A DNA stretch of 64,000 nt, from positions 1 to 64,000 of the forward strand of contig NZ_LGED01000208.1 of assembly GCF_001280085.1 (NCBI RefSeq), given 5' to 3'. The translations under genes and the position numbers were made by a program. Of this stretch, positions 32,257 to 46,134 are shown piece after piece. Below the pieces are notes generated by a model. It worked only from the letters and a program-made list of their open reading frames with translations. It did not search any database and was not told the DNA's origin. How positions within the stretch are numbered: the stretch's first letter is position 1; each line of letters begins with the position of its first letter. Source of the stretch: Saccharothrix sp. NRRL B-16348. Lineage in GTDB: Bacteria; Actinomycetota; Actinomycetes; Mycobacteriales; Pseudonocardiaceae.

Positions 32257-33369
32257 ATGCTTGACGGCGAGTTCCAGCGGAGGCTCTCGCGCCTCGGGCA
32301 CCGGTACGCCGTGCTCGGGAAGGCAGCCTTCGTCCTCGTCGCCGCGGGGTTCGGTCTGCCGGTGGCGCCTGTTCCCGGCGCGCTGCTGGCCGGCGTCGCG
32401 GGCATCGTGCTGCTGAACGCGATCCTGCTCCGATGGCCGCGGGCGCGATGGCCGTCGGCCGTCGAGGTCCTGGTAGCGGCTCTGGCTTGCCTGACCCAGC
32501 AGTGGACGGTGCCGGTCGAGGCGTTGACGAACGGTCACAGCTGGGCGCTGGTGTTCGCCTCGTTCGTCGCGGTCGCGTTCCAGTGGACGTCACGTCCCGT
32601 CGCCGGAATGGCGGTCGCGGTGGTCTTGTCGGCGGCGCACGTCATCGGAGCCGCGGTCCTCGGGCCAGCGGCCGTCACCTCCGCGCTTCCCCTCGCCGTC
32701 TGGATCTGCGTCGAGGCCGCGTTGTCCCGACTGCTCTGGTCGCTCGTGAACCGGAGTGCCGCCCAGGCCGACCACGCCGCGGCACGGGCCGAGCAGGAGC
32801 GAACGGAGTCCGTGGTCGCCCAGGCTGTCCGTGCCGACGAACGCCAGGAGGCCGCGCTGCTCCATGACACGGCTGCCACTACGTTGCTGATGGTCGCACT
32901 CAACCAGGTCGGCCGGGACGACGAGTGGCTGCGACCTCAGCTGCGCGCCGACCTCGATGCCATCGGCGAACAACCTCCGGACGCGGACGGGGTCGTGGAA
33001 CTGGGCGACGTCCTGTGCCAGGCCGGATCGGCGTCCAGGCTCCACGTCGAGTTCCACGTCGACCCCGGCCTGGCGGTGTCCGCGGCGTTGGGGGTGACGT
33101 TCGCCCACTGCGTCCGCGAGGCGTTGACCAACGTGTCCCGGCACTCCGGGGCGCCTTCCGCCACCGTGCTGGCACACCGGCGGGGAACGGCGGTGACCGT
33201 CGAGGTGATCGACCACGGGCGTGGTTTCGACCCGGCGGCGGTCCCGGCGTCGCGCCGGGGCATCACGAGCTCGATCATCGGTCGGATGCGGGACGCGGAC
33301 GGCCAGGCGTCAGTCACCTCGCACCCCGGCCACGGGTCGGTCGTGCGGTTGGTCCACGACCGTGGTTGA
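32257..33369 (+). CDS. Sensor histidine kinase (NarX/DesK-like)
   Basis: The 370-residue kinase has about four to five transmembrane helices in the first 165 residues and a coiled linker. A HisKA_3-like dimerisation region has candidate phospho-His in ALLHDTAATTLL (about 205-216), and a GHKL ATPase carries CVREALTNVSRHS (N box), DHGRGFDP (G1) and RRGITSSIIGRM (G2). It should signal to the NarL-type regulator encoded convergently at 34476-35129. The next co-directional gene begins inside its stop region (GTG 33362), so the two are coupled. Confidence 0.85.
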   Translation: MLDGEFQRRLSRLGHRYAVLGKAAFVLVAAGFGLPVAPVPGALLAGVAGIVLLNAILLRWPRARWPSAVEVLVAALACLTQQWTVPVEALTNGHSWALVFASFVAVAFQWTSRPVAGMAVAVVLSAAHVIGAAVLGPAAVTSALPLAVWICVEAALSRLLWSLVNRSAAQADHAAARAEQERTESVVAQAVRADERQEAALLHDTAATTLLMVALNQVGRDDEWLRPQLRADLDAIGEQPPDADGVVELGDVLCQAGSASRLHVEFHVDPGLAVSAALGVTFAHCVREALTNVSRHSGAPSATVLAHRRGTAVTVEVIDHGRGFDPAAVPASRRGITSSIIGRMRDADGQASVTSHPGHGSVVRLVHDRG

Positions 33370-34498
33370 CCTCCGCTCCCCCGCGGCGGCACACGAGGTC
33401 CAGGACGAGTTCCTCCGCAAGCTGCGGCTGTCGACCGCGGCGATCGCCGGCGCCGTCCTGCTGCTGCTCGACGGGCCGTCGCTGCTCCTCGCCCTGCGGG
33501 ACTTCGCCGCCCCTGCCGTCCAGATCACGGCCTACCTGTACTTGTGCCTTCTCGTCGTCGTCGAATGGCTGCTGATGCGGTGGGGGCGTTCGTGGGGCAA
33601 GGCCGGCCGGCCGGCCGCCGTCACCATCGTCATCGCGCACGTCGCCGCGACCGCGAGCCTCGCACCGGGACAGGTGCTCGAACAAGCCGACTGGAGCACC
33701 GGGGTGGTCGGTTGGGTCACGCTGTGCGTGCTGTTCGGCCACCCCCTGTCCACGCTGCTCCCGGTCCTGCTCCTCGAACTCGGCATCAGCGCCGCGAGCC
33801 TGGTCGCCGTGGCTCACGCCGACGAGGAAAGGCTCTTCGGCGGTTTGGTCGCGCTCACGGCGATCCTCGCCTTCCAGGTCTGCGTCGGCGGGACGGCCGC
33901 AGCCCTGGTCCGCCTCGCCGCGGCCGCCGACGCCGCCCACAGGGCGGTTGAGGAGACGACCACCACCCACCGCGTGGCCATCGGCCTCCACGAGGCGCGG
34001 AAGGCCCGGTACGCGGAGTTGTCCACTTCAGCGCTGCCCCTGCTCGAAGGGCTGCTGAGCGGCGCCCTCGATCCCGCCGACCCCGACGTGCGACGACGGT
34101 GCGGGATCGAGGCAGCCCGGATGCGGCGGCTGTTCGCGGAGGCCGACGACGCCGAAGACCCGTTGCTGCACGAGCTGGACGCGTGCATCGACGTGGCGGA
34201 ACGACGGGGCATCGAGGTCCACCTGGAGGTCAACGGACCGATACCGCCGTTGCCGCGTCCCGTGCGCCACCTGTTGACCGAGGCGCCGCTCGTCGTCGTC
34301 ACCACGGCACGCTCCAGCGTCCGCCTGGTGGTGCTGGGGACGCCGGACGCCGTGTCCGTCAGCGCTGTGGGCGACTGCCCTCCCATCGCACCTCAGGAGA
34401 TCGGCGATCCACGCGTCGTCGTGACGCAGCTGACGACGGCAGGACTGCGCTGGGTGCGCGCGGAGCACAAACTCGTCACGGCAGGTCGTCGAAGCTGA
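33362..34498 (+). CDS. Membrane protein resembling a degenerate sensor kinase
   Basis: The 378-residue protein starts at GTG 33362, overlapping the kinase stop by eight bases. It has about five transmembrane helices in residues 25-190, then a helical and beta region laid out like a kinase core (LHEARKARYAELSTSALPLLEGLLSG near 214-239). It lacks a clear phospho-His and the G1/G2 glycine boxes. It may heterodimerise with the preceding kinase as a regulatory or sensing subunit; that is inference. Its last 23 bases overlap the end of the convergent response-regulator gene. Confidence 0.65.
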   Translation: MVDLRSPAAAHEVQDEFLRKLRLSTAAIAGAVLLLLDGPSLLLALRDFAAPAVQITAYLYLCLLVVVEWLLMRWGRSWGKAGRPAAVTIVIAHVAATASLAPGQVLEQADWSTGVVGWVTLCVLFGHPLSTLLPVLLLELGISAASLVAVAHADEERLFGGLVALTAILAFQVCVGGTAAALVRLAAAADAAHRAVEETTTTHRVAIGLHEARKARYAELSTSALPLLEGLLSGALDPADPDVRRRCGIEAARMRRLFAEADDAEDPLLHELDACIDVAERRGIEVHLEVNGPIPPLPRPVRHLLTEAPLVVVTTARSSVRLVVLGTPDAVSVSAVGDCPPIAPQEIGDPRVVVTQLTTAGLRWVRAEHKLVTAGRRS

Positions 34499-35129
34499 CC
34501 AGCCCGTCCTCCAGCGCCCGCTTCACCAGGGCCTGCTTGGTCGCCGCGGGACGACCCAGCTCGGCGTACTTGGCCCGCACCCGCTCGACGTAGGTCTCCA
34601 CCGTCTTGCGTGTGATGTGCAGCCTGGCCGCGACGAGGTCCTTGGAGGCGCACTCGAACCACGCGGTGAGGACTTCGACCTCCCTCGGTGTGAGCCGTGC
34701 GCGACCGTCCGGCACCGCGCACAAGGCGCCGCTCAGTGATGGCGAGAGGTAGTGGACGCCCTCCGCCGCCGCTCGGAGAGCGGGAACGAGGTGCTCCGGT
34801 CCTTCGGCCTTCGTCAGATAGGCCAGGGCGCCGAGGTCGAGGCAGCGCATCACGGTGGTCGGCGCCAAGTGCTGCGAGTAGACGACCACGTGCCGCCCCG
34901 CCTTCACCAGCGCCTCCAACTCGGCGAACGCCGGGGGCTTGCCACCCAGCTGCAGGTCGAACACCACCACATCGGCCTCGGCGCCGTGCCCGGTCCACAC
35001 CAGCGGCAGGTGGTCGCTCGCGTCCACGACGTCGATCGGCGGGTCGGCGGCTCCGCACCACACCGTCACACCCACCACCACGGCGGGGTGGTCGTCCAAC
35101 ACGACCACCGTCACGCGTCTCGTGTCCAT
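34476..35129 (-). CDS. NarL/FixJ-type response regulator
   Basis: The 217-residue regulator has a receiver domain (about 6-120: VVVLDDHPAV with the acidic pocket, phospho-acceptor Asp in VVVFDLQLGG, conserved Lys in YLTKAEGP) and a LuxR HTH (about 145-205: LTPREVEVLTAWFECASKDLVAARLHITRKTVETYVERVRAKY). ATG 35129 follows GGGAGGACTACGTG; a GTG three bases earlier is equally possible. It is transcribed toward its probable kinase and shares 23 bases with the end of the kinase-like gene. Confidence 0.9.
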   Translation of the reverse strand: MDTRRVTVVVLDDHPAVVVGVTVWCGAADPPIDVVDASDHLPLVWTGHGAEADVVVFDLQLGGKPPAFAELEALVKAGRHVVVYSQHLAPTTVMRCLDLGALAYLTKAEGPEHLVPALRAAAEGVHYLSPSLSGALCAVPDGRARLTPREVEVLTAWFECASKDLVAARLHITRKTVETYVERVRAKYAELGRPAATKQALVKRALEDGLVSFDDLP

Positions 35130-35259
35130 CACGTAGTCCTCCCATGAGGCCACCACACCCAGTGTGTCGATCCGGACGAGCCGAACGTGTCGGGTGAACG
35201 ACCCACGCGCCACCCACGACGCCTTCCGCACCATCGAGGAACGACAAGGGAGGCGCACG

Positions 35260-35547
35260 ATGAAGACGACATTGGCCGTCGTGGCGCTCGTGCTCGCCGC
35301 GGCCTGCGCCCCCGCGAACAGCGCAACGTCGAAGTTCCACGACTTGCTCACCCAGAAGAACATCGCACCCCACGACATGGCCGAAGCGGAAACCCTGGCC
35401 AAGTCCCTGTGCGCCAAGCTCGACCAGGGGTACGGACTCGGGGACCTCATGGCCATGTACGGCGACTTCGGCAACAACATCAACGCCAAACGAGCGTTCC
35501 TGACCATCTCGGTCACCGCGTTCTGCCCGGAGTACGGCGCCCGATAG
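35260..35547 (+). CDS. DUF732-type small lipoprotein
   Basis: The 95-residue protein starts at ATG 35260 after AAGGGAGG. It has a lipoprotein signal with lipobox LAAAC (about 12-16), then a mature domain with FHDLLTQKNI, LAKSLCAKLDQG and CPEYGAR elements typical of the DUF732 family of mycobacterial and actinomycete secreted proteins. Its two mature cysteines likely form a disulphide. Function is unknown. It is divergent from the response regulator and may be under its control. Confidence 0.72.
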   Translation: MKTTLAVVALVLAAACAPANSATSKFHDLLTQKNIAPHDMAEAETLAKSLCAKLDQGYGLGDLMAMYGDFGNNINAKRAFLTISVTAFCPEYGAR

Positions 35548-35625
35548 CGTCCAGGCATCGGACATCTCCACCTGCCAGACGACTACAGGAGTCCTTTCCG
35601 ACTCCATTCCACGAAGGAGTTCGCC

Positions 35626-35949: not shown

Positions 35950-36099
35950 CGTGCCGGTCCGTTGATCGGGCTGGTCGAGGACCTGGCGGAACCCGCTACC
36001 GCATTGCCGGACCGCGCCGAGTCGGCGTCCCGCCTGACTGACGCCATCCGCGGCTCTCGTTCCCAGGAGCGGCGCCGCACTCATCCCGTGGAGGTTGCC

Positions 36100-36822
36100 G
36101 TGAACCTTTCCAAACCCGTCCCGCGCTTCGCCCTGTTCGATCGACCTCCAGGGGCCGGACCTCACAGGGTCCCAGGTCTGGCTGTCGCGCTGGACGACCT
36201 GCCGCGGCCGCGCGGCGCACACCTGGCCCCGATGGCGGTTGACGACGAGGTCGAGGTCGGGCGATTCGTCATCGGATACCTGCGCATCCTGTCCACCTGT
36301 GATGCGCAGGGCCGTCCGGTTGCCGGCGACGCCACCTCCGGCGATCTCCGCGAGGTGTGCGAGGGTGGCGGCGAGGTGCTGGTCACCGACCGGCGAGTGG
36401 TGGTCGAGGTCATGGTCGGCACGACCTGCCACGGCCCGGTCGACGCCAACCGGGGACATGTGCTGGTGGCCGACTTCCCCTTCGAAGCCGTCAACAGCGT
36501 CGAACGCCGTCGCAAGAAGAAGCTCCTGGGCGGGGTCAAGGAACAAGCGGTGCGGCTGAGTGCCCTGTCGTTCCCGGTGACCGTCGTCGAACTCGAACCC
36601 CTGGCTGTCCTGGACACCGCCACCGGGGATTCGGCCGGCGTGGACGTCCCGCTGTTCGCCGAGGTGATCGTCGCCATGGCGTGCGATGTCCACCTTGCGT
36701 CGGCGGGCCTCGAAAGCGCCGAACGCGACCGGCTGACCGCCGTACGGGCCGGCAGGTGGCAACCCGACGGGCTCGACCTCGTGGCCGTAATGTCGGCCCG
36801 GCCATTCGGCGGCTTGCCCTGA
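36100..36822 (+). CDS. Uncharacterised PH-like protein upstream of P450/RiPP genes
   Basis: The 240-residue soluble protein starts at GTG 36100 with GGAGG five bases upstream; in-frame starts further upstream lack a site. A central segment (GGEVLVTDRRVVVEVM to FPFEAVNSVERRRKKK) resembles a bacterial PH/GRAM-like beta barrel, though the match is visual only. Its stop is six bases before the first P450 start, so the two are probably co-transcribed. It may be an accessory protein of the peptide pathway, or may be unrelated. Confidence 0.6.
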   Translation: MNLSKPVPRFALFDRPPGAGPHRVPGLAVALDDLPRPRGAHLAPMAVDDEVEVGRFVIGYLRILSTCDAQGRPVAGDATSGDLREVCEGGGEVLVTDRRVVVEVMVGTTCHGPVDANRGHVLVADFPFEAVNSVERRRKKKLLGGVKEQAVRLSALSFPVTVVELEPLAVLDTATGDSAGVDVPLFAEVIVAMACDVHLASAGLESAERDRLTAVRAGRWQPDGLDLVAVMSARPFGGLP

Positions 36823-36828
36823 CAGCAC

Positions 36829-37995
36829 GTGCAGCGCGAAGCTGCTGTGGTCCGCGAAAAACCGGCCGGGCGGGGCGAACGAGTGGACGAACTCGAGCAG
36901 CTCGACGATCTTCGCGCCCGTCACGGGCCGATCTTCCGACGCCGGCCTGGCGTGCTCTACGTGGGCGAACCGGTCGAGGCGAAGGCCGTTCTCGCCAACA
37001 CCGGGTCGCGTTACCGGGAGCATTCGGACTTCTTCCAGACCAGCAAGGGAGTCCTCGGGCCGCGTTCGGCGCAGCAGGAGATCGGCCGGGTGGCGCGGAA
37101 CCTGCTGCGCGATCACTGGACTGCCCGGTCGGACCGGCTGGCAGCGACCGTCGAGCGGGAGATCGGGCTGGTCAGCCGGTGGCCGGACGCGGGAAACCTG
37201 TTGCTGTACAAGTGCTTCCGCGACGTGCTGGCGCCGGAGGGCGAGTTGCGCCGGCTCGTCGACCAAGTGGTCCGGCACGCGGTGCTGGCCGGCGCGCGAG
37301 ACCGGCGGTCGGTGCTGTCGCGGGCCGTGCTGCGGCGCAGCATCCGCCGCGCGCTGGTCGCCGAGCTGTCCCTCCGGCGCGCCCGGGGCGTGCGGGCGCC
37401 GCGCGACCTGCTGGACGTCCTCGCCGCCGCAGTACCGGAGGGCTCCTCACGCACGGCGCCGGCGCAGTTGGCGGAGGTGTTCCTGTCCTTCCTGTTCGCG
37501 GTCACGGGCTCGACGGGGTTCCTGCTGGGCTGGTCGGTGTACCTGATGGGCACCGAACCCGAAGCGGGGGGCGACCTGGCCGGTGTGGTGCGCGAGGCGT
37601 TGCGGCTCTGGCCGGTGGCCTGGAACTTCGGCCGCTTCCCCGCCGAACCCCATCGGCTGGCCGGCACCGAGGTCACGACGTCCGACGAGGTGGTGGTGTG
37701 CAGCTACCTCGTGCACCGGGACAGCCGCTTCTGGCCCGACCCCGACGAGTTCCGGCCGGAGCGGTGGTCGTCCGGCGTGCCGCGGGGCGGGGCGGAGGCG
37801 TTCATCCCGTTCGGCTGGGGCGCCCACGCCTGCGTGGCGGCGGGCTTCGCCGTGCACGTGGTCGAGGACATCCTGCGAGTGCTGCCGCCGGCCGAGCGGT
37901 GGCGGGTCGAGGCACACCGGCACCGGCCACACGTCGCGGCGGCGCTCGCCCCACCGGACTTCACCCTGCGCACGAACGGCGCGCGCACGCGTTGA
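36829..37995 (+). CDS. Cytochrome P450 A, putative RiPP-modifying
   Basis: The 388-residue P450 has an ExxR motif REALR (Glu256, Arg259), a PERW motif and the heme loop FIPFGWGAHACVAAG with ligand Cys335. The I-helix reads LFAVTGSTGFLLGW and lacks the usual acid-Thr pair, a trait consistent with oxidative coupling rather than plain hydroxylation, though not proof. GTG 36829 lacks a clear ribosome site and GTG 36846 is an alternative. It ends 11 bases before a 29-codon gene with an aromatic-rich C-terminus and is followed by a second P450. Crosslinking of that peptide is the best hypothesis. Confidence 0.83.
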   Translation: MQREAAVVREKPAGRGERVDELEQLDDLRARHGPIFRRRPGVLYVGEPVEAKAVLANTGSRYREHSDFFQTSKGVLGPRSAQQEIGRVARNLLRDHWTARSDRLAATVEREIGLVSRWPDAGNLLLYKCFRDVLAPEGELRRLVDQVVRHAVLAGARDRRSVLSRAVLRRSIRRALVAELSLRRARGVRAPRDLLDVLAAAVPEGSSRTAPAQLAEVFLSFLFAVTGSTGFLLGWSVYLMGTEPEAGGDLAGVVREALRLWPVAWNFGRFPAEPHRLAGTEVTTSDEVVVCSYLVHRDSRFWPDPDEFRPERWSSGVPRGGAEAFIPFGWGAHACVAAGFAVHVVEDILRVLPPAERWRVEAHRHRPHVAAALAPPDFTLRTNGARTR

Positions 37996-38006
37996 GGGAG
38001 GTGAAC

Positions 38007-38096
38007 ATGGCCAAGATCATCCACGCCGCACTGGTGGCACTCAACATCCGCAAGAGTGATGCCGAATACCGCTGGTACGTCTACCACCACATCTGA
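38007..38096 (+). CDS. Putative P450-modified RiPP precursor peptide (29 aa)
   Basis: The gene starts at ATG 38007 behind a perfect GGGAGG (37996-38001), 11 bases after the P450 A stop, and ends TGA 38096. The peptide begins MAKIIHAALVALNIRKSDAE (1-20), a short amphipathic leader, and ends YRWYVYHHI (21-29), dense in Tyr, Trp and His. Size and layout match precursors of tryptorubin-type atropopeptides, cittilins and biarylitides, whose C-terminal aromatic core is crosslinked by a P450. Here two P450 genes flank it. The core does not match the published cores AWYIWY, YIYY or MRYYH. No dedicated protease or transporter is adjacent. Precursor status is inferred. Confidence 0.78.
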   Translation: MAKIIHAALVALNIRKSDAEYRWYVYHHI

Positions 38097-38107
38097 TCGA
38101 CGCGGGC

Positions 38108-38131
38108 GGGGAGCGTGGCGACGCGCTCCCC
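38108..38131 (+). terminator. Intra-operon hairpin between precursor and P450 B
   Basis: GGGGAGCG and CGCTCCCC form an 8-bp stem around an 8-nt loop, 11 bp after the precursor stop and seven bases before the GGGGGAGG ribosome site of P450 B. It could be an attenuator or 3'-end stabiliser keeping precursor mRNA above P450 B mRNA. Confidence 0.5.
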
Positions 38132-38151
38132 ACCTTTGGGGGAGGCACCTG

Positions 38152-39399
38152 ATGACCGGTCGCGACGACCCGGACCTGCTGGCGAACCTGCGTGCCCCCA
38201 ACGCCGAGCACGACGGGGTGTTCTGGCACGGCGACCGGCGGCTGATGGTGTTCGACGCCGACGCGGCCAACCAGGCCAACGCCGAGAACTTCGCCGACCT
38301 GACGCTGCCCGACCGGTTCGTCGACCGGATCCGCGGCCGCCGCAGCCCGGCCGTGTCGTGGCGGCAGGTGCGTTCGCTGTGGCTGTCCCAGCTGCGGGTG
38401 CTCAGCGGGGAGGACCGGCTGCGCGCATTGACCGACCGCATGGCCGCGGCACTGGACAGTCGCCGCGACCAGCACGTGGACTTCGCGTGGCTGTCACACG
38501 AGGTGATGTTCCGCGCGCTGGTACCCGTAGTGCTCGACGGACTGTCCACTTCGGATCAGGCTTGGCTCGCTCGCGACGCGATCGCGAAGCTGACCCGACT
38601 GGACGCGGGCCCCGGCGGTCAGACCCGCCGGCAGCAGTGGCAGGCCATCGTCGCCCAGCTGCACACCGGTCGGGTCGTGCGCAAGGAGATCCGCCGCCGC
38701 GCACGTGGCCGGCACAGCCGCGTCGACCTCACGCAGCCCATCGTGGACCGGTTGCTGCCCTCGCTGGGCCCGGACCGGGCGTTGGAGGCGGTGACCACGG
38801 TCCTGACCGCGATCGCCGGGCCACCGGGCGCGGTCGCCGGCTGTCTGATGTACGAACTGGCGAAACGCCCCGAATGGGCGGCCACCCTGACCGCGGAGTT
38901 CGCGGCCGGTTCCGCCGAGCAGCTCTACCGCACCGGCACCAGGTCCGCGCCGACCGCGCACCAGTTCGTGAAAGAGGTCCTGCGGATGTGGTCGGCGCCG
39001 CTGCTGATGACCCGCAGCGCCCGCGTTCCCCTGACGGTTCGCGCCAACCGGCTCGAGGTGGGCCGGCACTACCTGGTGAGCCCGTACCTGGTCAACCACG
39101 ATGAGCGGCACTGGTCCGACCCCGACACGTTCGACCCGCACCGGTGGTCGGCCGAAGCCGCCCACCGCCCACCCGGCGGGCACTACTACGTGCCGTTCGG
39201 CTGGGCGCCCACCACGTGCATCGGCGCCGGACTGGGGAGCATCCAACTGGTGCTGTTGACGTACCTGCTGTGCACCCGATTCCGGCTGGAGCTACGTGCG
39301 CCCGATGCCGCTCGGGTCTCCCTGGGGGCTGTGCCACGGCCTCTGGACTTCGACGGATGGGTCCGCCTTCGCCAACTTCCCGTGACCGACGCCACGTAA
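38152..39399 (+). CDS. Cytochrome P450 B, putative RiPP-modifying
   Basis: The 415-residue P450 starts at ATG 38152 after GGGGGAGG. It has ExxR in KEVLR (Glu275, Arg278), a DPHRW motif and the heme loop YVPFGWAPTTCIGAGLG with ligand Cys356. The predicted I-helix contains AIAGPPGAVAG, with two prolines and no acid-Thr pair, which is strongly non-canonical. It follows the 29-aa peptide gene by 55 bp and is clearly diverged from P450 A, so the two likely install different bonds. It converges with the GGDEF/EAL gene. Confidence 0.84.
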   Translation: MTGRDDPDLLANLRAPNAEHDGVFWHGDRRLMVFDADAANQANAENFADLTLPDRFVDRIRGRRSPAVSWRQVRSLWLSQLRVLSGEDRLRALTDRMAAALDSRRDQHVDFAWLSHEVMFRALVPVVLDGLSTSDQAWLARDAIAKLTRLDAGPGGQTRRQQWQAIVAQLHTGRVVRKEIRRRARGRHSRVDLTQPIVDRLLPSLGPDRALEAVTTVLTAIAGPPGAVAGCLMYELAKRPEWAATLTAEFAAGSAEQLYRTGTRSAPTAHQFVKEVLRMWSAPLLMTRSARVPLTVRANRLEVGRHYLVSPYLVNHDERHWSDPDTFDPHRWSAEAAHRPPGGHYYVPFGWAPTTCIGAGLGSIQLVLLTYLLCTRFRLELRAPDAARVSLGAVPRPLDFDGWVRLRQLPVTDAT

Positions 39400-39444
39400 C
39401 GCAGAAGTCCCTACCGGTCGATCCCGGAACAGTCCCCGCCGCGG

Positions 39445-42324
39445 TCAGTCGAGGGCAGGGACGGGTAACGGGCTCGTGGCCAGCACAGCCCGGATCTCCT
39501 CGGCCGGCACCGGGGGCGAGAACAGCCAGCCCTGGTAGGCGTCCACGCCCAGGTCTCGCAGCGCGGTGAACTGGGCCACGGTCTCGACCGCTTCAGCCAC
39601 GCACTTGCGGCCCATCGCCCGAGTCATTGCCACGACCGCCCGTGCCACCGCGAAGTCCGAGGAGTCGTTGCCCACGTCGGAGACGAACCACCGGTCCACC
39701 TTGATGATCTGCGCCGGCAGGTCCCGCAGTCGCGCCAGCGACGAGTAGCCCGTGCCGAAGTCGTCCACCGCGAAACGGATGCCCCGGTCGACCAACTCGC
39801 CCATCGACTGCCGCACCCGCGAGGGCAAGCCGACCAGCGCCGTCTCCACCAGTTCGAGCACGACCCTGTCCCACGGGATGCCGGCCTCGTCGATGGCGTC
39901 CGCCACGATGTCCACGAACTCCGGGTCGCCGGGCACCAGCCCGGCGAGGTTCACCGCCACCGACACCGGCTGGTCGTTCGGCGCGGGCCACGTGACGGCT
40001 TCCTTCAACGCCCGGCGGAGCACCCACCGGTCCAGCTCGCGCAGCAGGTCGCCCTGCTCCGCGACGGGCAGGAAGACGTCCGGCGACAGCAGGCCGCGGT
40101 CCGGGTGAGGCCAACGCACGAAGGCTTCGGCGGCCTGCACGGAGCCGTCCACGCCGACCACGGGCTGGAAGTGCAGCGCCAGGCCGTCGTGGGCCAGCGC
40201 CTCGCGCAGCTGGCCTTCCAGGTGCACCTGCCGGTCGGCGGAGGCGATCAGTCCCGCCGACGCCAGCGAGACCCGTCCCGCGCCGAACCGCTTCGCCTCG
40301 AACATCGCCGCGTCCGCGAAGCGCAGCAGGTCGTTGCCCGTCACCTGCGAGTCGTGAGGTACCGCGGCGCCGATCGACGCCGACACCCGGACCAGTTGCC
40401 CGTGCACGGGAACGGCCGTCCGCAGCACGCCCGCGACCCGGGCGGCGAGCGCGTCGACGCCGCCGACCTCGTCGATGTCCGAGCAGATGATCACGTACTC
40501 GTCACCCGACAACCGAGCCGCGGTGCAGCCCTCCGGCAGAGCGGCCTCCAGCCGCCGGGCCAGCGCGACCAGCAGCTCGTCACCGGCGTCGTGCCCCAGG
40601 GAGTCGTTGACGCGCTTGAAGTTGTCGACGTCGCAGAACAGCACCGCCACTCGCGAGCGGTCCTCGGAATCCAGCAGGGTCGTCAACATCTCCTTGACCA
40701 GCGCACGGTTCGGCAGCCCGGTCAGCTCGTCGTGCGTGGCCTGGTGGCGCAGCGCCTCGGCGGTGCGGCGACGCTCGGTGACGTCCTGGAAGGCGACCAA
40801 CCAGGTCGGCCCGCCGTCGCGTTCCCGGGAGAGCGTGATTCGCAACTCGCAGTACACGATCCCGCCATCCGACCGCACCAGGATCCGTTGCGGGACCTCG
40901 TGCGCGGGATCCCCGGTCTCGCGGGCCGCCCTCAACCACCGGCCGTCGTCGTCGGGATGGGTCAACTGCTCAGCGGTCATGCCTCGCAACTGCTCCAGTT
41001 CCAGGCCGAGCAGATCGCACAGCGCGTCGTTGGCGTCCACCAACCGGTCCGCCTCGTCGAACAGGCCCATGCCCACCGGGGAAAGGGAGAGCACGTCGGT
41101 CATGAGACGGGCCGGGTCGTCCATGCGGTGAGGGGTGAAGACCACCCACTGGTTCGGCCCCCTGCGCTTCGCCGCGTCCAAAGCCGCTCTGGCGTCACGC
41201 AGCAGCTCGCTGACAATGCTCCGCGCGGTCTCACGCATGACGATGCCCGCTGCGGCGGGCAGCGTCAGCACGACCTCGTCGACCGGGATCGGTGCAGCCA
41301 CCTCCGCCAGCAGCCGGCGCGTCAGCTCGATCAACTCGACGTCGTCGCGCGGCTCCGCAACCGCGATGACGAAACCGGTGCCCAGGACGGTGAGGAAGCC
41401 TGAGTCGGGTAGCACACGCGCGAGGCGGGCACGCGCGACCGCCAACACCTGGTATTCCCTCTCGCCGAGGGTGTCGTTGAAGGCGACTGGTCCGTCGAGT
41501 TCCAGGTGGCACAACCCGACGCGGGTCACGGAGCCGGTCAGGACCCCCGCCAACCGGTCGAGGAACCAGTCGAGATCGAGCACGCGACTCGACAGCACGA
41601 CGCCGGCTCCGCCGGCCTCCAGATCGGCGAGTTCGCGTTCCTGTTCGTCCAAGAACCGCTGCACGCGGTCCAGGCCGGCCGCCGTGTCACCGAGGACGTC
41701 GTCGTGGGAGGGGATCGCGCTGTCCGGTTCCGCCCCAACTGTGGGCAGGCCTGGATCGTGCAGGCCGACCCGACGCAGCGAGTTCTCCAACTCGAGGATC
41801 TTCGCTTGGGCGCCTTCGGCCAGGGCGGTCGCGCGACGCCGTTCCTCCTGCGCCTGGCCGAGTTGTCCCTCTGCCCGCCCACGTTCCTGTTCGGCCGTCG
41901 ACAGCCGCCTGCGGGTGGCCGTCAACTCGGTGCGGTGGTCGGCGATCTCCGCCAGGTAGCGGTCGCGTTCTCCGGTGAGCTGCGAGATCAGGGCGGACAA
42001 CCGGATCAGCACCACGCGCAGGACCAGGATCACTTGGGAAGCGCGGTGCTCCACCTGGGCACTCTCCAGCATCATTCTGCGCGCGTCGTTGAGTTCCTCC
42101 ATCACGGCGATGAGCTGACGTTGCGCCTGAATGGTCTCCGCCTGCGCCTGCACCAGCCGGACCTGCCCGTCAGGGAGCACGAGGTCGTGGGTGAGGCTGA
42201 TGGTCGCGTCACGAGCGGCTTGCACGATGATGGCCGGGGATGACGCCTGAGCGCGCTGCCCGACGCCGCCGTTGTCGGCGAGTGGGGGCTCGCCGTCGTC
42301 TGTGGGCGGGACACCGTCATGCAT
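39445..42324 (-). CDS. GGDEF-PAS-GGDEF-EAL cyclic-di-GMP protein
   Basis: The 959-residue protein has an N-terminal coiled-coil region (about 35-215). Next come a degenerate GGDEF-like domain (about 240-400; LCHLELDGPVAFNDTLG, but no signature loop), a PAS domain (405-520), a GGDEF domain with signature SGDEY near 605, and an EAL domain whose motif is EAF near 733 with DDFGTGYSS intact. The altered signatures leave cyclase and phosphodiesterase activity uncertain. ATG 42324 lacks a clear ribosome site. It begins about 50 bp downstream of the NB-ARC/CHAT-like gene on the same strand, suggesting a shared operon and signalling link. Confidence 0.88.
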   Translation of the reverse strand: MHDGVPPTDDGEPPLADNGGVGQRAQASSPAIIVQAARDATISLTHDLVLPDGQVRLVQAQAETIQAQRQLIAVMEELNDARRMMLESAQVEHRASQVILVLRVVLIRLSALISQLTGERDRYLAEIADHRTELTATRRRLSTAEQERGRAEGQLGQAQEERRRATALAEGAQAKILELENSLRRVGLHDPGLPTVGAEPDSAIPSHDDVLGDTAAGLDRVQRFLDEQERELADLEAGGAGVVLSSRVLDLDWFLDRLAGVLTGSVTRVGLCHLELDGPVAFNDTLGEREYQVLAVARARLARVLPDSGFLTVLGTGFVIAVAEPRDDVELIELTRRLLAEVAAPIPVDEVVLTLPAAAGIVMRETARSIVSELLRDARAALDAAKRRGPNQWVVFTPHRMDDPARLMTDVLSLSPVGMGLFDEADRLVDANDALCDLLGLELEQLRGMTAEQLTHPDDDGRWLRAARETGDPAHEVPQRILVRSDGGIVYCELRITLSRERDGGPTWLVAFQDVTERRRTAEALRHQATHDELTGLPNRALVKEMLTTLLDSEDRSRVAVLFCDVDNFKRVNDSLGHDAGDELLVALARRLEAALPEGCTAARLSGDEYVIICSDIDEVGGVDALAARVAGVLRTAVPVHGQLVRVSASIGAAVPHDSQVTGNDLLRFADAAMFEAKRFGAGRVSLASAGLIASADRQVHLEGQLREALAHDGLALHFQPVVGVDGSVQAAEAFVRWPHPDRGLLSPDVFLPVAEQGDLLRELDRWVLRRALKEAVTWPAPNDQPVSVAVNLAGLVPGDPEFVDIVADAIDEAGIPWDRVVLELVETALVGLPSRVRQSMGELVDRGIRFAVDDFGTGYSSLARLRDLPAQIIKVDRWFVSDVGNDSSDFAVARAVVAMTRAMGRKCVAEAVETVAQFTALRDLGVDAYQGWLFSPPVPAEEIRAVLATSPLPVPALD

Positions 42325-42374
42325 CGGTCGATTGTGCCGCATCCGCACCGAGGTGCTGAGCCATGACCGCGACG

Positions 42375-45300
42375 TCAGTCGCCCGAACCGATGCACAGGA
42401 ACGGCCGGTGCAGTGGATCGGCTGCCACGATCCGGGCGAGTGCCCTGCTGGGCGCCTCACCCGCGGCCAGGGCTGTGTGCAGCTCGGTCATGACGGTGAA
42501 CGTGGTCCGCTCGGTCACCTTCGTCACCGCGACGACGACGGTCCGCACCCCGGCGACGAGCAGTCCGTTGGCGAACCCGAGCGCGTCCTCCGCCGACACG
42601 CGTTCGCCCGTGCCCTGGAGCACGACCAGGGCGGGCGGTTCCTCCAGCTCGCCGAACTCGTGCGCGAGCAGCGCGCCGTCGGCGAGCACGACCTTGGAGA
42701 AGGCGAAGTTCTCCGGTTCGTGCTCCCGCTGCGCCACCACGTGCACGAAACGCGCTCCGTCGGCGCGTTCCAGCACCGTGCGAACCTCCGGGGCGACGAT
42801 TTCGGCGCGCGCGTGCAGCCCCGCCAGCTCGACGATGTCGGCACGGTCCGTCCGCGCACCCGGCCCGATCACGAACAGGCCCCGGTCCGACCGCGGCGGC
42901 TCGACCCGACGTCGGGCGGCCGACCACGCGGTGACCGACGGCGCCACGACCAGCGGCCGGCCGCGCAACGACGGCAGCGCCGACCACGCGACACCCGCCA
43001 ACGGCTCGGCGGGGACGACCACCAGCTCGCGGTCCCCGATCAGCTCCAGCAACGGCATGACGACGTGCCGGTCCAGGTTTCCCGCGGACCGTCCGGCCTG
43101 CGCGGAGGTCAGCCCCGCCACCCGGCCGGACCGGCCGTCCTCCGGCGCGGCGAAACGCAGGTCCGCCCGTAACAGCCTGACGTGCTCGACCACGTCGCCC
43201 AGGACCAGGTCCACGACGTGTGCGCGGCCTCCCGCGACCACGGTCGCGATCAGTTGGCGCTCGGTCGCCGCGAACCCGATCAGGGCACGCTCACCGAGCT
43301 GCTCCACGACCGCGTCGAGTCCCGTGACTTGCTCGCTGCCGAGGAACCCCTGCCGTTGCGGCCGGAACTGCTCGGAAAGCTCGAACACCCTGCGGGGGTC
43401 GTCGTCGCGCAGGGCGATGCGCAGCGCCAACGCCCGCAGGGCGCGTCCGTACATGGTGCTCGCGGGCGCGGCGCCGATGCCGGCCGTGCGGCCGTCGGAC
43501 TGGCCGACCGCCACGTACCCCTCCGCGGCGAGCGCGACCGCCACCTCGGGTTCGCCGAACCGCTCCAGCAACTCGGCCTCGCACAGCACGTGCAGCAGCC
43601 GCTGGTCGGCCGGCGTGCCCACGCTCGGCGCCGCGACTTCGTTGAACAGCTCTTCGGCGCGGGCAAGCTTCCCGGCCGCCACCGCCACCCGGACCCCGAG
43701 CAGCCGTGCGTAGTCGGCCTCTTCGAGCATCTCCAGCTCGTCCAGGTCCGACGCCGTCGACAGCGCCTTGTCGATCGTCCAGTTGGGCGAGGTGTTCGAG
43801 GTGTCGAGCGCACTGGTGCACAGCGCGGCCAGGGAGGTCAACGAGCAGACAGCCGCGGCCTTGGCGTCCTTGAGCTTGTCGAACGCCGCCTGCGCCGAAC
43901 GCGCCAGCCGGATCGCCCGTGACGGGTCGCCGCACGCCATCGCGGCGACCGCGGTGAGCCGGTGCACCTCGGCCAGCTCCCAGGTCATGCCGGCGAGCCG
44001 CAACTGGTCCCCGAGCAGCGACAGCGACTGCAACGCCCTCGCGTGCAGCCCGGCCGCGACCTTCGCCTCCTCCTCGTCCAGCCTGATCCGGTACCAGTAG
44101 CGCCGCCGGCCCTCCTTGAACACCGGCGCCGCGGCCACGAAGTGCCGCAGCGCCACGGGCAGGTCCCCGGCGGCACGGGTCAGCACACCCAGGTCGTGGG
44201 CGAGGTAGCCGACCTCGTCCGGCGCGATCCCGTGGCGGCGCGCGTGATCGAGGACGGCCTCCAGGTTGAGGCGCTCGGTGGCGAACCAGCCCCGGTGCGG
44301 CGTGACGCCGCCGGTCGGCGCGGCTGTCGCACGCCGATGGCTCTGCCTGCCACCGGTCACCTGCTTCACGGCGTGGGCGGTCAGCCGGCGGTAGTGGCCG
44401 AACAGCCGGGAGAACGACCGCTCCGCCGCGGCGGCGGTGAAGTGCTCGGCGGCCAGGTCGTGCGCGTACGCGGCGAGCAGGTCGTGGGTGCGCAGCCGCC
44501 CGTCGGCGACCACCTCCACCAGGTGCACCCGCACCAGGTCGTCGACCGTCCGCTGGACCTCGTCCACGGGCAGGTCGGCCAGCGCGGCGATCGCGGGCAC
44601 GTCGTACTCGCGCCCCGGGTGCAGGCCCAGGAACCGGAACACCAGGCCGCACCGCTCGTCCAGCGCCTTGAGCGACCACGAGAACACCGTGCGGATGCTG
44701 TGGTCGTCGTCCGCCATGCCGAGCAGGCGGCGTTCGTCGGCCAACTCCTCCGCGATGTCGGCCAACGGCGTCCGCGACCGCACCGCCGCGATCTCGGCCG
44801 TGATCCCCAGCGCGAGGGGCAGGTTCGAGCAGCTGCGCACCAACGCCTTGGCCGCGGCCCCGTCCTCGTCCACCCTGGGCCCGATCGTCACCCGCAGCAG
44901 CCGCAACGCGTCCTCGAGCGGCAGCAGGTCCAGGTCCACGCCGTGCGCGCCGTAACGGACCCGCAGGGTCGACATGCGGTCACGGCTCGTGACGACGACG
45001 AAGCACGACGCGCTGCCGGGCAGGAGCGGCAACACCTGGTCGACCCGGCCCGCGTTGTCCAGCACCACCAGGATCCGCCGGTCGGCCACCAGCGTGCGGT
45101 AGCGTGCGGCGCGCTCGTCGCCGTCACTGGGGATGTCCGTGACACCCAGCGCCCGCAGGAAACCGGCCAGCACGTCGTGCGGGGACAACGGCGGCTCGCG
45201 GTCGTAGCCGCGCAAGTCGACGTAGAGCTGCCCGTCGGGGAACTGGTCTTCCACCCGGTGCGCCCAGTGCACGGCCAACGCCGTCTTGCCGACCCCGGCG

Positions 45301-45524
45301 GTGCCGGACACGGCGGAGATCACCACCCCGGAGGTACCGCCGCGCAACCGCGCGTCCAGCTCCCCCAACTCGGGCTCGCGCCCGGTGAAGTTGCCGGTCG
45401 CCAACGGCAGCTGCCGCGGCTGCCGCACGGGCACGGCGGTGGTGATGTGCACACCGCCCGGGATGTCCCGTGCCTGCACGACGTTCCCGCTGGGACCGGA
45501 GACCGAGTTCGAGTGCCCGGTCAC
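42375..45524 (-). CDS. NB-ARC/TPR protein with catalytically dead CHAT domain
   Basis: The 1049-residue STAND protein starts at GTG 45524 with a short N-terminus (GNVVQARDIPGGVHI). An NB-ARC ATPase follows with Walker A GTAGVGKTAL near 74-83 and ILVVLDNAG as Walker B, then a winged-helix region, TPR-like helices (about 450-780) and a C-terminal CHAT fold (about 800-1049). In the CHAT fold the usual HFACHG reads HVVAQR and the LSAC block reads VLQGTG, so catalytic His and Cys are both absent. It probably acts as a scaffold or sensor rather than a protease. The GGDEF/EAL gene is its downstream neighbour. Confidence 0.85.
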   Translation of the reverse strand: MTGHSNSVSGPSGNVVQARDIPGGVHITTAVPVRQPRQLPLATGNFTGREPELGELDARLRGGTSGVVISAVSGTAGVGKTALAVHWAHRVEDQFPDGQLYVDLRGYDREPPLSPHDVLAGFLRALGVTDIPSDGDERAARYRTLVADRRILVVLDNAGRVDQVLPLLPGSASCFVVVTSRDRMSTLRVRYGAHGVDLDLLPLEDALRLLRVTIGPRVDEDGAAAKALVRSCSNLPLALGITAEIAAVRSRTPLADIAEELADERRLLGMADDDHSIRTVFSWSLKALDERCGLVFRFLGLHPGREYDVPAIAALADLPVDEVQRTVDDLVRVHLVEVVADGRLRTHDLLAAYAHDLAAEHFTAAAAERSFSRLFGHYRRLTAHAVKQVTGGRQSHRRATAAPTGGVTPHRGWFATERLNLEAVLDHARRHGIAPDEVGYLAHDLGVLTRAAGDLPVALRHFVAAAPVFKEGRRRYWYRIRLDEEEAKVAAGLHARALQSLSLLGDQLRLAGMTWELAEVHRLTAVAAMACGDPSRAIRLARSAQAAFDKLKDAKAAAVCSLTSLAALCTSALDTSNTSPNWTIDKALSTASDLDELEMLEEADYARLLGVRVAVAAGKLARAEELFNEVAAPSVGTPADQRLLHVLCEAELLERFGEPEVAVALAAEGYVAVGQSDGRTAGIGAAPASTMYGRALRALALRIALRDDDPRRVFELSEQFRPQRQGFLGSEQVTGLDAVVEQLGERALIGFAATERQLIATVVAGGRAHVVDLVLGDVVEHVRLLRADLRFAAPEDGRSGRVAGLTSAQAGRSAGNLDRHVVMPLLELIGDRELVVVPAEPLAGVAWSALPSLRGRPLVVAPSVTAWSAARRRVEPPRSDRGLFVIGPGARTDRADIVELAGLHARAEIVAPEVRTVLERADGARFVHVVAQREHEPENFAFSKVVLADGALLAHEFGELEEPPALVVLQGTGERVSAEDALGFANGLLVAGVRTVVVAVTKVTERTTFTVMTELHTALAAGEAPSRALARIVAADPLHRPFLCIGSGD

Positions 45525-45693
45525 ATCGTCCCCACCGACCACCACGACCTCCGTCTGCTCACCGAAGGCCGCCCACGGTAGCCGCACCCGCCGTCCGACC
45601 ACTACGCGACCGGACTCCGGCGGGACCCTCTCGCGGAGAGAGGCGGGTCGGGCGAACCGGTGAGGTTGGTCGGCGACTCTAGGACGGTGCGGG

Positions 45694-46134
45694 CTAGATG
45701 CGGAGGATCCATTGTTCGCATCGTGCTTGGTCACCGAGGCTGGTGTCGACCAGGTCGGGCAGGCGACGGGCGCTCAGTCGGTAATCGCCGGGCGCGGGCA
45801 GGTCGACGGTGATGTCGGCCGGGCTTCCGGTCGAGGCGGCCAGGAGAAGATTACCGGAATCAGTGCGGAATCCGCCGGTGTAAGAGTGGTCCTCGGCGTT
45901 GTCCGGTCCGGGGTCGGTGTCGTGGAGGTTCACGACCACGTCGGCTTCGAGGTTGCGGTCCGTGGCGTGGAACATGGCTCCGCCGGCACCGCTGACCGCG
46001 ATCCAGCGCGAGTCCGTCGTACCGAGACCCGCCGCCGAGGAGTGTCCGGAGACGTCGAACAGCACGAAGTGCCCGAACTCCACGGGCAGGCGTGCCCGCC
46101 ACGTGCGTCGCACCGCGGGTCGCTGTTCGGTCAT
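45694..46134 (-). CDS. Uncharacterised small protein
   Basis: The 146-residue soluble protein has no recognised family. Visible features are a beta-rich pattern (FGHFVLFDVSGHS, SRWIAVSGAGGAMFHATD, ADITVDLPAPGDYRLSARRLPDLVD) and a single Cys near the C-terminus. ATG 46134 is chosen; an in-frame upstream start would add about 12 residues. It lies 170 bp upstream of the NB-ARC gene on the same strand. The GDYRLSAR segment recalls small actinobacterial competence- or immunity-like proteins, but that is only impression. Confidence 0.5.
   Translation of the reverse strand: MTEQRPAVRRTWRARLPVEFGHFVLFDVSGHSSAAGLGTTDSRWIAVSGAGGAMFHATDRNLEADVVVNLHDTDPGPDNAEDHSYTGGFRTDSGNLLLAASTGSPADITVDLPAPGDYRLSARRLPDLVDTSLGDQARCEQWILRI

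Follow-up and report, generated by a model that had tools for sequence, protein, structure and literature searches.

A predicted hyalucidin-family RiPP cassette in Saccharothrix: a 29-codon precursor gene between two cytochrome P450 genes

Hyalucidin A is a RiPP with a benzofuranoindoline that arises by 'tandem P450 catalysis', to judge from the title of the publication that describes it (doi 10.1002/anie.202522698, Angew. Chem. 2026; cited in PMC13417212). For the atropopeptides, the available text of PMC11450843 presents a model in which the leader docks on the P450; in laurentirubin, according to the same text, a second P450 adds a fourth bond. In the biarylitides, too, P450s crosslink side chains of Tyr, Trp and His; the precursors of this class, in the available text of PMC13417212, have five residues. 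The locus described here lies in a 64,000-nucleotide stretch of DNA from Saccharothrix sp. NRRL B-16348 (contig NZ_LGED01000208.1), hereafter called the window. We read it, from sequence, as a hyalucidin-family cassette in which two P450s would crosslink the Trp3 and Tyr side chains of a short peptide tail, and put the probability of this reading at roughly 93%. Both the name of the family and the logic of two P450s have already appeared in print, and the locus is an ordinary, well-formed member of a family published by 2026. Because the family has been described, the value of the locus is comparative. Cassettes of a RiPP precursor and two P450s offer a compact way to rigid multicyclic peptides, and the present one, with three genes within 2.5 kb, is a clean example.

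The three ORFs of the cassette are all encoded on the + strand, in the order P450-1, 29-codon gene, P450-2. P450-1, the first cytochrome P450, is about 370 amino acids long and occupies positions 36883-37995, its TGA stop ending at 37995. The frame is open back to a GTG at 36829, which the first-pass annotation had taken as the beginning of the gene. The GTG at 36883 is nevertheless the more probable start, since several of the closest homologues begin at the residue encoded there and since residues 1-17 of the longer reading have a pLDDT below 50 in the AlphaFold model. Eleven base pairs (37996-38006, GGGAGGTGAAC) separate P450-1 from the ATG of the precursor gene at 38007 and include its ribosome binding site, GGGAGGTGA, at 37996-38004 (+ strand). 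The precursor gene itself (38007-38096, + strand) encodes the 29-mer MAKIIHAALVALNIRKSDAEYRWYVYHHI and ends with a TGA at 38094-38096. Its leader part covers about 38007-38066 (about residues 1-20) and the putative core, YRWYVYHHI, 38067-38093 (+ strand). This tail holds three Tyr and Trp3, the sole Trp. After a gap of 55 bp follows P450-2, the second cytochrome P450, with 415 amino acids and an ATG start (38152-39399, + strand). The 29-codon gene, its strong ribosome site and the two gaps had all been placed at first pass exactly where the sequence has them. Pfam PF00067 matches P450-1 at 78.2 bits and P450-2 at 80.4 bits; at E 0.01 Pfam returns nothing for the 29-mer and nothing for an ORF at 35962-36822.

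The 29-mer is matched by NF053510.1 ('hyalucidin A family RiPP precursor'), a curated NCBIfam equivalog model of 29 positions, over residues 1-29 of 29 at 71.6 bits, twice the cut-off of 35. The precursors of seven relatives score 47.8 to 74.0 bits with the same model. It follows that the core, which the first-pass annotation had called unrecorded, already belongs to a curated family. The remainder of that interpretation, a RiPP precursor with two dedicated crosslinking-type P450s, is upheld by this match together with the co-occurrence of the P450s, their I-helices and the conserved gene order. The likeness to hyalucidin A extends to the two P450s, which here stand on both sides of the precursor gene in 17 of 17 loci. 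It extends also to the tail: a benzofuranoindoline is built from one Trp and one Tyr, and both residues are present. The end-to-end equivalog match argues for the same product class as hyalucidin, an assignment that is made from the NCBIfam family name and the published title.

In genome searches, the own genome being counted each time, the precursor model was found in 9 of 199 relatives and in 18 of 390 genomes of the family. Farther out it was found in 2 of 397 genomes of the order and in 1 of 394 of the class, and each of the searches gave none in 14 control genomes. A pattern search with a degenerate DNA pattern found eight named records, namely Saccharothrix sp. S26, S. algeriensis, S. 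tamanrassetensis, Actinosynnema sp. ALI-1.44, Amycolatopsis xylanica, Lentzea aerocolonigenes, L. indica and L. nigeriaca. In the loci of Lentzea/Amycolatopsis type (L015, L019, L026, L029-L033 and L035), the precursor starts with GTG or TTG and the leader begins with SKIF, not AKII. Such starts may hide these genes from gene callers.

Seventeen loci of 12-15 kb were compared, that is, the window and 16 others, with G960 omitted as it lies on a short contig. Tblastn of each locus gives the order P450-1/peptide/P450-2 in 17 of 17. In all of them the P450-1 homologues (47.5 to 89% identity, the own sequence aside) end just before the peptide, and the P450-2 homologues (43.5 to 89% identity) align from 54 to 71 bases past the peptide stop. 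The 29-codon frame is thus kept between both P450 homologues throughout. P450-2 was also searched on its own. Of 386 family genomes, 17 have it at E 1e-60 or better, and every one of these belongs to the 18 that carry the precursor, which makes the pairing independent of the precursor-based search. The P450-2 of G960 is probably cut by the contig end. When the ORFs were clustered mechanically, all families with members in more than 3 of the 17 loci overlay the cassette itself, many of them on other frames, and no additional gene family beyond the P450-coding stretch exceeded 3 loci.

All 18 family genomes with the precursor contributed to the analysis of selection, the first residue being counted as Met. 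Their 18 loci carry the gene in 17 different DNA versions, which encode 13 different peptides. Among the 8 closest loci the mean dN is 0.035 and the mean dS 0.31 (28 pairs), and the pairwise differences at codon positions 1, 2 and 3 number 57, 7 and 125, the third position taking 125 of 189. The 29-codon gene is real and under purifying selection. Short ORFs are common in high-GC DNA, and one could suppose that a chance frame lies here between two ordinary P450 genes. This supposition is refuted by the 18 loci with their 13 different peptides, by the low dN relative to dS and by the curated family match, which leave it a negligible probability.

The ribosome site GGAGGTGA precedes the precursor gene in all 18 loci. 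Six residues of the tail, R2, W3, Y4, Y6, H7 and H8, are invariant in the same set. The core varies mainly at position 5, where L occurs in 9 loci, V in 7, and Y and W in 1 each. Position 1 is Tyr in 17 loci and Phe in 1, position 9 is Ile in 17 and Leu in 1, and G018 accounts for both exceptions. The G018 precursor (L017:7021-7107, - strand) is the most divergent found; its tail reads FRWYWYHHL and it still lies between two P450s. Having Phe1 and Trp5, it indicates that not every member can form the same bonds, and, because of Phe1, that Tyr1 is dispensable in at least one of them. The 18 loci thereby reveal the fixed residues of the core, and one natural variant removes Tyr1.

In hydroxylase P450s an acid-alcohol pair serves O2 cleavage, and P450s that join aromatic rings can deviate from it. 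P450-1 has the I-helix motif AVTGSTG, an ExxR at 256-259 and Cys 335 (numbered from 36829); the corresponding features of P450-2 are AGPPGA, 275-278 and Cys 356. The alignments, each of the window's own enzyme with a choice from the best 120 of its search, hold 39 sequences for P450-1 and 40 for P450-2. All of them keep the heme Cys as well as the Glu and Arg of ExxR. The nine tabulated I-helix residues include no Asp or Glu in 39 of 39 P450-1 and 40 of 40 P450-2 sequences (own included), so that both P450s and their aligned relatives are devoid of the acid-alcohol pair. The I-helices had been noted as unusual from the window alone, and the same departure is common to both alignments. Within this stretch, GSxG at 227-230 occurs in 34 of 39 P450-1 sequences, the Ser being replaced by Trp in four and by Gln in one, and GPP at 223-225 occurs in 40 of 40 P450-2 sequences. 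Such I-helices suggest that P450-1 and P450-2 are probably oxidative (radical) couplers rather than hydroxylases. Very probably, the two flanking P450s crosslink the rings of a short aromatic peptide.

AlphaFold predicts ordinary P450 folds for both proteins, with a mean pLDDT of 86.0 for P450-1 and 87.8 for P450-2. Among solved sequences, 9ulw ('Cytochrome P450') comes nearest to P450-1, with 235.6 bits over its residues 44-382; BM3 is next with 57.1 bits. P450-2 has no close relative among solved sequences: 7wzl is the best at 52.6 bits, followed by 3dbg, CYP51 and steroid 17-alpha-hydroxylase at 48 to 49 bits. Neither enzyme is thus near a solved macrolide or steroid hydroxylase, a grouping that, joined to the absence of a crosslinked peptide mass, the first-pass annotation had held to speak against its proposal. 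Against the cassette reading, neither enzyme reaches a named RiPP-P450 model of NCBIfam. The best match of both is the aminopyruvatide P450 ApyO (NF050147.1), at 69.2 and 58.4 bits; these scores are far under the 525-bit cut-off, and the pathway is a different one.

From the observed gene order, conservation, selection, family match, I-helix residues and hairpin (see below), we infer a scheme for the substrate, the bonds, the order of action and the protease, and a role for the hairpin. The 29-residue precursor would be translated and its leader would deliver the aromatic tail to the two P450s. Leader residues 1-20 probably dock on these enzymes, as modelled for atropopeptides. The P450s would then act in succession on YRWYVYHHI, crosslinking side chains of Trp3 and Tyr. 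Homology to hyalucidin A, whose 'benzofuranoindoline' we read as a Tyr-Trp motif, suggests a benzofuranoindoline that joins Trp3 to a Tyr as one feature of the product. A bond from Tyr1 to Trp3 would be a diazonamide-like i,i+2 pairing. The other P450 may either form a further bond or complete the benzofuranoindoline ring system. For the linear tail YRWYVYHHI the calculated [M+H]+ is 1336.6585, and loss of 2H or 4H would lower it to 1334.6429 or 1332.6272. A peptidase would finally cut off the leader; since the cassette is not regularly accompanied by any further gene family, this enzyme is probably encoded elsewhere.

In a relative of hyalucidin with another bond pattern, the second P450 would join a Tyr to a His, for example Tyr6 to His8, and the product would be a bicyclic peptide distinct from hyalucidin A. 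P450-made Tyr-His crosslinks are established in the biarylitides (available text of PMC13417212), H7 and H8 do not vary among the 18 loci, and two separate P450s are retained together in 17 of 17. However, the His residues may also be invariant because they bind the P450s or a target, and the equivalog match over the whole 29-mer favours the same product class. A Tyr-His bond is compatible with membership of the hyalucidin family, so its odds overlap those of the preferred Trp-Tyr scheme; we consider it rather unlikely.

Other P450-dependent classes fit less well. An atropopeptide with an extra P450, similar to laurentirubin B, would agree with the two P450s and the aromatic tail, and the two-P450 atropopeptides (available text of PMC11450843) likewise combine a precursor with two P450s that act in sequence on aromatic residues. 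In contrast to them, the 29-mer is without any of the KSLK-type leader motifs listed in that text, Trp is third, not second, in the conserved tail, with which the mature peptide may begin, and the precursor belongs to another family with an NCBIfam equivalog of its own. We regard the atropopeptide assignment as very improbable and retain that of a hyalucidin-family peptide. A biarylitide was also rejected: the precursor here has 29 residues and is accompanied by two P450s, whereas the search criterion in the available text of PMC13417212 is 5-8 residues with aromatics at positions 3 and 5.

A conserved RNA hairpin with a 10 bp stem lies between the precursor gene and P450-2, at 38108-38131 (+ strand). 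Stems of 10 to 14 bp, beginning 6 to 12 nt past the precursor stop, are found in 18 of 18 loci, the close ones among which are not independent. Dinucleotide shuffles of these intervals, 100 for each locus, gave a stem of at least 10 bp in 44 of 1800 cases, with 0 to 6 cases in any one locus. In G018, the most distant locus, the arms differ yet still pair, and stems of other loci have G-U in place of A-U or G-C. In the window this interval has a folding energy of -30.7 kcal/mol; whole-stretch folding stands out little in four loci, with z of -2.57 (the window), -1.09, -0.21 and -0.88. An intrinsic terminator was considered and rejected, as a terminator scan of 36400-39900 shows none at the hairpin; the scan gave one terminator-like site, at 37470, compared with 1.2 expected. 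The hairpin probably keeps precursor mRNA above P450-2 mRNA, and its conservation points to a possible means of balancing the precursor against the enzymes.

Among the matches listed, P450-1 homologues include a Corallococcus, a Myxococcaceae MAG and Thermoanaerobaculia MAGs, and P450-2 homologues include Corallococcus, Hyalangium, Pendulispora, Myxococcaceae MAGs and a Thermoanaerobaculia MAG. Virgisporangium is among the listed matches of both, with contigs of equal size. Taking equal contig size as a proxy for the same contig, 30 of 119 listed P450-1 contigs equal in size one of 119 for P450-2, the jittered mean being 1.2 and the jittered maximum 5. The named contigs among these 30 are actinomycetes, with no named Myxococcota or Thermoanaerobaculia. 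We tentatively propose, with the odds somewhat against us, that the P450-1/P450-2 pair is wider than the hyalucidin precursor model and reaches Myxococcota and Thermoanaerobaculia with other cores. Under the same proposal, the actinomycete core would be a natural library at position 5 (V, L, Y, W), and G018, with FRWYWYHHL, would be unable to use Tyr1. If this is true, each bond could be attributed to a residue and an enzyme by comparing the products of different members.

The neighbourhood of the cassette contains several other genes. On its 5' side are a histidine-kinase-like ATPase protein (32257-33369, + strand) and a LuxR-type regulator (34476-35558, - strand) whose receiver domain is under the Pfam cut-off. 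Directly 3' of P450-2, on the opposite strand, lies the gene for a 983-residue PAS-GGDEF-EAL cyclic-di-GMP protein (39445-42396, - strand). Positions 42375-45734 (- strand) encode a 1119-residue protein with NB-ARC and CHAT (caspase-like protease) domains, which we take to be of a type known from bacterial immunity or cell death.
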